This document shows, piece after piece, positions 445 to 14,583 of a stretch of DNA of 21,883 nucleotides; within the stretch, counting starts at the first letter, position 1; the number at the start of each line of letters is the position of its first letter. The notes under the pieces were generated by a model that saw only the letters and a program-made list of their open reading frames with translations, did not search any database and had not been told where the DNA came from. The stretch covers positions 1 through 21,883 of the IMG/VR virus record IMGVR_UViG_3300032516_000227, one strand, 5' to 3'. The position numbers were made by a program, and so were the translations under genes. This stretch comes from a virus.

Positions 445-629
445 GCAGGAGTTTGATGTTCTCTTTCCTATGAAGAGATGTACTAGCTGAGTGAATTCAC
501 CGAGTGGTGTATACCATCCGAGTGCTAGATTCTTGGCTAGTCCAGACTAGAGGTCGTCTCAGATCCCAGCCGTGAATGTAACACTAGCGGCATAGGAGAG
601 CGGTGCTTAAGACCGAGGCCTTGACCCAT

Positions 630-2376: not shown

Positions 2377-2525
2377 CAATGGGATGACGTAAGTCACCCG
2401 TTGGCCCAGAGTGGTGCCAGTGTGCATCACTCAGGGCCAGCCCTTTGTATCGCTTCATAGGGCTCCACATTCTAAACAGTGTGGATGGGTACAAGGATTG
2501 GCTCTGAGTGATGTGCATTGGCACT
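2377..2525 (+). ncRNA. highly structured RNA element
   Basis: Two independent folds stand out. First, 2377-2403 forms an 11-bp hairpin: CAAT.GGG with a bulged A, then TGAC, the GNRA tetraloop GTAA, GTCA, CCC and GTTG. Second, 2414-2439 pairs with 2499-2524 at all 26 positions (22 Watson-Crick, 4 G-T), with further G-T pairs at both ends. This helix encloses a hairpin at 2440-2463 (GCCCT/AGGGC) and another at 2465-2484 (7 bp, loop CTAAAC). The mix of G-T pairs shows it is selected as RNA rather than a DNA palindrome. It sits between two small genes and does not look like a terminator. It could be an RNase III-type processing site, a riboregulator or a stand-alone small RNA. Confidence 0.7.
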
Positions 2526-6870: not shown

Positions 6871-7145
6871 ACAAGAACCATATCATTCGTGAGTTGAAAG
6901 ATTTTGTTAAAGCAATGGGTAAGGCACTGCCTCGCTTGGCTACCTGGAACCCGCTCAAGCTGGCACATGCTTGGGTTAACGTGCTTACTGAATCAGTACG
7001 CGCATTGCCGTATACCATAGTGCACGTAGGCTTGGTAGTAGCTGTAGTATGGGCAGGGTTTGAAGCATACGAACACTTCAGCGAACTGGCTTGGCACTTC
7101 AAACACCTCCAAGCGGGTGAAGCACACGTGTTTATCCTCCGATGA
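6867..7145 (+). CDS. small membrane protein, single TM
   Basis: The 92-residue protein has an amphipathic basic N-terminal half, one hydrophobic segment at about residues 50-66 (TIVHVGLVVAVVWAGF), then a His-rich polar C-terminal tail. The positive charges before the span predict an inner-membrane protein with the N-terminus in the cytoplasm. Start and stop overlap the neighbouring genes by four bases each, so it is translated as part of the same operon. It lies two genes downstream of the endolysin, so a role in lysis control is conceivable, but one span and no lipobox make neither holin nor spanin assignment secure. Confidence 0.65.
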   Translation: MNKNHIIRELKDFVKAMGKALPRLATWNPLKLAHAWVNVLTESVRALPYTIVHVGLVVAVVWAGFEAYEHFSELAWHFKHLQAGEAHVFILR

Positions 7146-11160: not shown

Positions 11161-11451
11161 ATGAAGATCCCTGCGACATTCAAGGCAGTCAATAGACTGT
11201 GGATTGTTAAACGCATGGGTGCTAAGCGAGCAGCTAAACTAAATGCTCTGTGCTCATATACTAAGCACACCATTTATCTAGCAGACCAGGAAGATCGAGC
11301 AGACATGGAGCACTCGTTTATACACGAGTGTCTCCACGTCCTTGAGCACACCCTTGGTGTGAAGCTAGATCATGACCAGCTAGATGCTGCTGCTGGTATA
11401 GTACACCAGATGATTGAGTCAGCAGAAGGAGAGTACAATGGCAAGGTGTGA
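11161..11451 (+). CDS. small zinc metalloprotease-like protein (HExxH)
   Basis: The 96-residue protein contains F-I-H55-E56-C-L-H59, the zincin HExxH motif, in a helix, followed by H63 and an acidic residue-rich helix (HDQLDAAAGI) that could supply the third ligand. Before it are strands and a loop (HTIYLADQEDRADMEHSF) arranged as in minimal ImmA/IrrE- or SprT-like domains, where a strand of bound substrate lies beside the motif. The small size suggests a bare catalytic core. Peptidase activity, for example against a host regulator, is plausible but unproven; such phage proteins are usually annotated only by motif. Its end overlaps the next gene. Confidence 0.7.
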   Translation: MKIPATFKAVNRLWIVKRMGAKRAAKLNALCSYTKHTIYLADQEDRADMEHSFIHECLHVLEHTLGVKLDHDQLDAAAGIVHQMIESAEGEYNGKV

Positions 11452-11632
11452 TAGCTACCACTACGCTATTAAGGAAGAGGATGAGGAGCTGATAGCTGCG
11501 CTGTATCTAGCGGGGCTACCGGGTAGGGAGATAGCAGATAAGTTTGAGACTCATCACAAGGCTATCTACCGTACACTTGAAAGGTTGGGTATTAAACGAC
11601 GAACGAGGTGGCATGATGTTAGCGCTGATTGA
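11438..11632 (+). CDS. small helix-turn-helix protein
   Basis: AAGGAG six bases before the ATG at 11438 selects this start (64 residues), inside the end of the HExxH gene. Residues about 17-50 (ELIAALYLAGLPGREIADKFETHHKAIYRTLERLGIKRR) form a typical helix-turn-helix of the resolvase/sigma type. The first helix ends in LPGREIA, and the recognition helix is HHKAIYRTLERLGI, followed by a basic arm. It may be a transcription regulator or a DNA-binding accessory factor. It is encoded immediately upstream of, and overlapping, the 5'-3' exonuclease gene. Confidence 0.75.
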   Translation: MARCDSYHYAIKEEDEELIAALYLAGLPGREIADKFETHHKAIYRTLERLGIKRRTRWHDVSAD

Positions 11633-13881: not shown

Positions 13882-14252
13882 TGGCTAAAGGAAGGCCAAT
13901 AAAGCACAAGGAGGGAGATTATTGTGAAACATGTGGGGCTGCCCCTAAGAGGTACAAAGGTTATAGTATAGCTGGCACCAAAACATACGGTGCCGAGTGT
14001 GACTATTGTCACAAGACATCACACGCCGTGACTAGAAAGACTAGCTGCGAGCTGTGCGGATACTCACCTCTCTTTATTAGATCCCTTGATGTGCACCACA
14101 GGGACGGGGACAACACAAACAATGAAGAATACAACCTATGGACACTGTGTGCGACATGCCATAGGGAACTTGAAGCCTCAATCCATGACCTAGGGGATTG
14201 GCAAAAGGCAGAGTCATGGCTAAAGAAGTTTATTACTCGCGCATTTAAGTAA
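13881..14252 (+). CDS. HNH endonuclease
   Basis: This 123-residue protein ends with a clear HNH nuclease core: LDVHHRDGDNTNNEEYNLWTLCATCHRELE. H72-H73, N79/N85 and H94 correspond to the catalytic and metal-binding His-Asn-His residues. Structural zinc is held by C56-x-x-C59 and C90-x-x-C93. Two further pairs, C15-x-x-C18 and C40-x-x-C43, suggest an extra N-terminal zinc finger for DNA binding. It is the last gene on this strand before the terminator, a position where phage homing or genome-processing HNH enzymes often lie. Whether it is a homing nuclease, a nickase or a packaging aid cannot be decided here. Confidence 0.9.
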   Translation: MAKGRPIKHKEGDYCETCGAAPKRYKGYSIAGTKTYGAECDYCHKTSHAVTRKTSCELCGYSPLFIRSLDVHHRDGDNTNNEEYNLWTLCATCHRELEASIHDLGDWQKAESWLKKFITRAFK

Positions 14253-14267
14253 TAACTTAAGCATAAA

Positions 14268-14299
14268 AAAAGGCCCCAACCGTGAGGAAGGGGCCTTTT
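14268..14299. terminator. bidirectional intrinsic terminator between convergent blocks
   Basis: AAAAGGCCCC (14268-14277) and GGGGCCTTTT (14290-14299) form a 10-bp stem with T-runs on the 3' side of either strand. It lies between the end of the + strand replication block and the end of the - strand late block and would stop transcription from both sides. From 14300 to 14346 I see no gene on either strand that needs annotating, apart from a purine-rich GGAGGAGGAGG tract at 14336-14345. Confidence 0.92.
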
Positions 14300-14346
14300 C
14301 TTTGCCTTGATTTTTAGTCCAAGGACTTAAGCCAGGAGGAGGAGGA

Positions 14347-14583
14347 TTATGGCTTTTTCTTTGTTGGTGTACGCGGTCGCGTAATCAACTCAGACCCATG
14401 TAGGGCTGCTACCAACTCCTTAATATCCATACGAATCTCTTGCAAGAGATCTGACATAGCGTCATGACCCGCTTCAAGTACTGCAACCCTAGTGCCCAGC
14501 CTAGCAACCCAGCCAGCCGCAGCTACTGATGTTGATACCGTGTATAGGATTACTCCAAGCATAACGTCGTCTACCTGTAACAC
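14347..14583 (-). CDS. small membrane protein with coiled coil
   Basis: The 78-residue product starts at GTG 14583, one base after the stop of the preceding late gene, or at ATG 14562 (71 residues). One hydrophobic span at about residues 7-28 is followed by a helix with heptad-like Leu/Val/Ile spacing (30-62) and a basic Pro/Lys-rich end. This layout, a short N-terminal anchor and a cytoplasmic or periplasmic coiled coil, is seen in several phage lysis or tail accessory proteins. As the last gene of the late block, after the holin-like gene, a lysis role is reasonable but not shown. It has no lipobox. Confidence 0.7.
   Translation of the reverse strand: MLQVDDVMLGVILYTVSTSVAAAGWVARLGTRVAVLEAGHDAMSDLLQEIRMDIKELVAALHGSELITRPRTPTKKKP

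Follow-up and report, generated by a model that had tools for sequence, protein, structure and literature searches.

The window analysed here is a 21.9-kb virus record (IMGVR_UViG_3300032516_000227; 21,883 nt), the + strand of which carries a phosphoesterase gene (3200), a primase/helicase gene (3973), an endolysin gene (6089), and a DNA polymerase gene (7865). Judging from its gene content, this + strand block is likely to be an early gene block; the - strand carries a tail-type gene that has a transglycosylase domain. An RNA element at 2377-2525 lies between two small + strand ORFs, i.e., a 46-aa membrane-like ORF upstream (ATG at 2236, stop at 2374-2376) and a 60-aa ORF downstream (ATG at 2553). 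The element starts immediately 3' of the TGA at 2374-2376 and ends approximately 17 nt upstream of GAGGGA, the Shine-Dalgarno-like sequence of the downstream ORF (about 2542-2547, + strand). An intrinsic terminator, consisting of a stem-loop followed by CTCTCTTTTT, is located on the + strand at 2865-2884, about 340 nt downstream of the element. The element itself has no U-run after 2525 and is absent from the list of terminators, and no promoter-like site was found near it. An earlier reading of the letters alone (hereafter, the sequence-only reading) had placed the element after one stop codon and before the next ribosome site, without a U-tract, and this placement is as described.

Fold strength and architecture

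The region 2377-2525 has a minimum free energy (MFE) of -87.0 kcal/mol, as compared to a mean of -49.4 kcal/mol for shuffled sequences (z -8.77; 0 of 200 shuffles as low); the comparison with shuffles that the sequence-only reading had proposed thus places the fold far below its background. When folds were computed along the entire window, on both strands and in sliding windows of 150 nt, the two lowest z-scores both fell at the element. The long helix, P1, pairs a 5' arm at 2414-2439 with a 3' arm at 2499-2524; all 26 positions form standard pairs, as had been claimed, including four G-T pairs in both orientations (2420-2518, 2423-2515, 2424-2514, and 2435-2503), and RNAfold lengthens the helix to 28 pairs. 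The adjacent hairpin, H1 (2377-2403), is likewise present with its 11 pairs and GTAA loop and carries one bulged A; its basal pairs use, on the 3' side (2400-2403), bases that also belong to a second strand described below.

Inside P1, the first inner hairpin of the sequence-only reading (2440-2445/2460-2465) is not part of the MFE structure. The MFE interior is instead a three-way junction in which 2445-2451 pairs with 2488-2494, with the inner hairpin Hb (2464-2485) and a weak four-pair hairpin (GCUU/GGGC, 2452-2463) as the other two arms. The alternative hairpin at 2440-2465 (AGCCCU/AGGGCU, 14-nt loop) overlaps the weak hairpin, and since both inner alternatives are invariant in the related phage described below, comparison favours neither. 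Masking of the ribosome site by the element was considered and set aside, as the Shine-Dalgarno-like bases are partly paired in the local fold, but not by P1.

Conservation in a related phage

Protein searches identified a single close relative, IMG/VR contig IMGVR_UViG_3300049491_000354 (stretches L002/L104/L108), along with many distant ones at about 30-47%; the primase/helicase of the close relative shows 83% protein identity (74% at the DNA level). This phage carries the same RNA between the same two small genes (L002 4607-4770; fold z -7.94) and has a similar stem at the place equivalent to the terminator at 2865-2884, so that in both phages the RNA element and the terminator precede the primase/helicase gene. 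A comparison of 43 nested pairs (9 in H1, 27 in P1, and 7 in Hb) between these two sequences, the only ones available for it, found 12 pairs that vary, 11 of which retain standard pairing; two are double changes (2419-2519, A-U to C-G; 2469-2480, A-U to U-A), and the sole broken pair is the innermost one, 2440-2498. P1 comprises 24-26 standard pairs in both phages, H1 pairing survives three single-side changes, and Hb, the sequence of which has changed while its pairing is kept, shows one double and two single compatible changes; the GNRA loop, which had featured prominently in the sequence-only reading, is not conserved.

Some pairs switch to or from G-U between the two phages, and because of its G-U pairs the + strand folds better than the - strand, with -87.0 versus -62.8 kcal/mol in the window and -95.2 versus -62.7 kcal/mol in the relative, i.e., an advantage of 24-33 kcal/mol across both. 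The alignment over the region contains indels of 1, 2, and 4 nt and the region is thus not coding. Pairs kept through changes, together with the strand asymmetry, support maintenance of the structure at the RNA level. The sequence-only reading had made the same claim from G-T pairs alone and had named disruption of the helix in homologous phages as a possible refutation; in the single homologue found, the helix is preserved.

Variation is unevenly distributed along the element. A 46-nt run inside the element (2420-2465) is identical in both phages, and no exact match between the window and the compared 18 kb of the relative is longer; in P1, none of 15 pairs varies in the inner half as compared to 5 of 11 in the outer half (Fisher p about 0.007, calculated by hand).

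With regard to known families, covariance models of Rfam 15 run over 2377-2525 identified no family at the gathering score, in agreement with the statement of the sequence-only reading that no named RNA has this layout, and the same search found no similarity to known aptamers. At relaxed E-values only microRNA precursors matched, with 20.9-27.9 bits versus a threshold of 90 (best, mir-3927, 27.9 bits); these were rejected as chance similarity to a long stem. INPHARED isolate phages yielded a match neither to the RNA nor to the protein of the next gene. Exact core patterns retrieved from IMG/VR the one relative plus unrelated sequences that lack the flanking structure, and a 16-base pattern, too short to be informative in either direction, gave scattered matches in genome contigs among the matches listed. 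When 0.83 Mb and 25 whole records were searched with a covariance model of the element, the two copies already known were the only ones to appear, together with their reverse strands, whose matches are explained by the near-palindromic nature of long stems. The model detected no copy in distant relatives, which may reflect absence, divergence, or fragmentary records. With no match in Rfam 15, the element is a new family as far as the catalogue is concerned; in kind, it is related to phage intercistronic RNAs and strand-exchange RNAs that are already known.

A competing hairpin and the predicted order of folding

The main feature of the element, which the sequence-only reading overlooked, is a competing hairpin at 2400-2417/2424-2441, the 5' strand of which is a supposed linker. 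Strand A (2400-2417) pairs with strand B (2424-2441) at 17 of 18 positions, the sole mismatch being A-A (2408-2433), and this hairpin has a free energy of -31.3 kcal/mol (-28.3 kcal/mol for its equivalent in the relative). Strand B also builds the inner half of P1, in which it pairs with strand A' (2499-2516), part of the P1 3' arm. The element hence contains two mutually exclusive helices with a common strand, both conserved in both phages; the window and related phage loci (0.99 Mb) contain 81 strong helices, and a strand-sharing pair among them occurs only in this element, in both phages. None of the 17 A-B pairs differs in the relative, and they hence provide no covariation of their own; strand A is invariant although nine of its bases (2404-2412) are single-stranded in the final fold.

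When the order of folding was approximated by the MFE of growing chains, which is not a kinetic simulation, A-B was present for transcripts with 3' ends at 2429-2511 and B-A' from 2512 onward. Growing transcripts of the relative flip at the equivalent point, and their path loses A-B briefly at 3' ends 6977-6992 and 7007-7012. At full length, the state that retains A-B has -67.9 kcal/mol versus the MFE of -87.0 kcal/mol, i.e., it is 19 kcal/mol worse. The helix formed by 2445-2451, which are invariant in the relative, and 2488-2494 adjoins B and can form just before A' emerges; it therefore represents a natural candidate for a toehold. The A-A mismatch is predicted to weaken the first helix relative to the second, and in the yxjA riboswitch such a mismatch, occurring naturally in the P1 helix, was shown to control strand exchange (PMC9756952).

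Further RNA-like features of the two phages

Two other long-stem RNAs are found in the relative, upstream of the region that the window covers. One (L108 347-448; z -7.2) has 18 uninterrupted pairs plus seven, encloses two hairpins, one of them a GUAA hairpin and the other of nine pairs, and has, like the element in the window, a stop codon on one side (about 343) and a ribosome site on the other (about 451); the second (L108 64-236) is a 29-pair helix, the 3' strand of which takes in GGAGGT, the ribosome site ahead of an ORF at about 236. These additional RNAs hint at a recurring design.

A separate group of observations concerns tRNA-like pieces, which span 500-1150 and 2109-2175 in the window and are found at L108 5358-5751, 6672, and 2866-2920 in the relative. 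T-arm motifs resembling GGTTCGANTCC, with acceptor- and D-arm-like flanks, occur at window positions 731, 911, 1042, 1124, and 2154, and the relative retains several of the pieces, among them an exact run of 32 nt at 1108. While ARAGORN identified no tRNA among these pieces, RF00005 scores 32.9 bits at 2109-2175, where 11 nt stand in place of the anticodon arm, and the pieces may represent tRNA-like RNAs that lack a normal anticodon arm; a weak YrlA match was also observed at 1038-1088. In the same gene block, the palindrome-like TAGTCCGGACTA recurs (window 538-549 and 2137-2148), and TAGTCYRGACTA has six exact matches in L108 (359, 422, 2476, 2742, 3591, and 5124) and two in the window; the repeated palindrome TAGTCCGGACTA is possibly an operator or part of RNAs.

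On the - strand of the window, a strong fold at 14201-14350 (z -6.1) combines a long GC stem with a T-run after it; it is located where the + and - gene blocks converge and is probably a terminator. An unexpectedly stable - strand fold at 11260-11460 (z -7.8 in the scan and -4.7 for a longer stretch) is antisense to an ORF at 11161-11451.

Possible function of the element

Our preferred reading, to which we assign a probability of roughly 40%, is that the element is a cis-acting intercistronic RNA that undergoes co-transcriptional strand exchange and ends in an RNase III-type helix, thereby delaying cleavage. Strand B, on leaving the polymerase, would form the 17-bp hairpin with the upstream strand A, A-A mismatch included; about 50 nt later, 2488-2494 would pair with 2445-2451 as a toehold and place A' beside B. 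Branch migration would then allow A' to displace A, with A' favoured by full pairing at A2433 and by about 11 further pairs. The exchange would yield the uninterrupted 26-28 bp helix P1 and free strand A, so that H1 could close completely. As the first hairpin, being short and mismatched, would be a poor substrate for a double-strand nuclease and P1 a good one, the element would delay the RNase III-type cleavage that separates the upstream from the downstream cistron, a role similar to that of the R sites of T7. While the analysis shows the RNA-level fold, the conservation of both pairings, and a predicted folding order, refolding in the cell, cleavage, and an effect on expression are inferred, with processing, antitermination, or a released RNA as the candidate outputs. 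A point that counts against this mechanism is the invariant inner sequence, which asks for more than a nuclease site, for which little sequence is needed.

The same sequence bears on two alternatives. A static processing or insulating stem, in which P1 and H1 alone matter, as an RNase III site or as a barrier to exonucleases, and in which the A-B complementarity simply follows from A and A' being mutual copies, would be consistent with a long and continuous P1 that separates a stop codon from the ribosome site of the next gene, as well as with the similarly placed second long stem of the relative (L108 347-448). We nevertheless consider it rather unlikely, as a plain stem has no need of 46 invariant inner nucleotides, and as strand A, despite its nine unpaired bases, and all 17 A-B pairs are invariant. 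That the 46-nt exact match includes predicted loops would instead fit a trans-acting phage RNA or a binding site for a protein or ligand, in which processing of P1 releases or displays the core UUGUAUCGCUUCAU...GGGUACAA; however, the searches described above yielded no promoter-like site nearby and no Rfam relative, no target was found, and the loop doubles as the proposed toehold, which is possibly enough to hold it invariant, making this explanation unlikely as well.

Two further explanations appear less probable still. Cis-acting antitermination of the put type would allow polymerase to read through the terminator that lies about 340 nt downstream and so reach the replication genes; the arrangement of RNA, terminator, and primase/helicase gene in both phages agrees with this, but the support is positional, with no match in sequence or family, and we judge it improbable. 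A DNA-level role, as a cruciform, a replication origin, or a repeated protein-binding site, could draw on good folding of both strands and on three copies of GGCYCWGAGTG, two direct and one inverted (2403, 2428 on the - strand, and 2500). It is, by contrast, hard to reconcile with the 24-33 kcal/mol advantage of the + strand in both phages and with pairs that change to and from G-U, and GGCYCWGAGTG is not enriched elsewhere; a replication origin at the element was rejected since no change in GC skew occurs here. We regard a DNA-level element as very improbable.

The element can also be placed among known systems. Put RNAs of HK022 are, like the element, structured RNAs that precede a terminator in a phage operon; they are shorter and of a different build, and the element differs from them in size, architecture, and sequence, with antitermination only a candidate function here. 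In the leader of MS2, an RNA phage, and in SRP RNA, an early local hairpin gives way to a long-range helix during transcription, and the output of refolding of this type is translation timing or maturation. The predicted refolding of the element from an early hairpin to a long helix resembles that of these RNAs, which have been named as folding test cases (PMC12212151), while its sequence is unrelated to theirs. That phage transcripts can carry RNase III sites is known from T7 mRNA, one such site being R1.1 in the early mRNA, which is described as a 49-nt stem (PMC8708148). The element shares with R1.1 and the other T7 sites a stem of about two helical turns in the intercistronic space of a phage transcript; its helix is longer, uninterrupted, and encloses a three-way junction, it has an adjoining hairpin and a competing upstream strand, and its own cleavage is putative, with no sequence relation seen. 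Like the Bacillus yxjA riboswitch, the element has one strand that serves two mutually exclusive helices, the first of which contains a natural A-A mismatch (PMC9756952); unlike yxjA, it has no known aptamer and no directly attached terminator (no U-tract), and its position is intercistronic in a phage.

A more specific proposal is that the element is a ligand-free three-strand timer of the toehold type, in which a 17-bp helix is exchanged for a 26-bp helix without an attached terminator to set the time at which an intercistronic site is activated, and that sister long-stem elements lie between other early genes; we regard this as possible but, on the whole, doubtful. If true, it would provide a DNA phage with a three-strand RNA design whose known examples are chiefly riboswitches and engineered toehold devices, in a compact element with clear mutational predictions (i.e., changes to A, A', or the A-A mismatch), and would show a way for phages to time how neighbouring genes are expressed with no regulatory protein involved. 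Even as a mere processing stem, the element would represent a conserved RNA outside all catalogued families.
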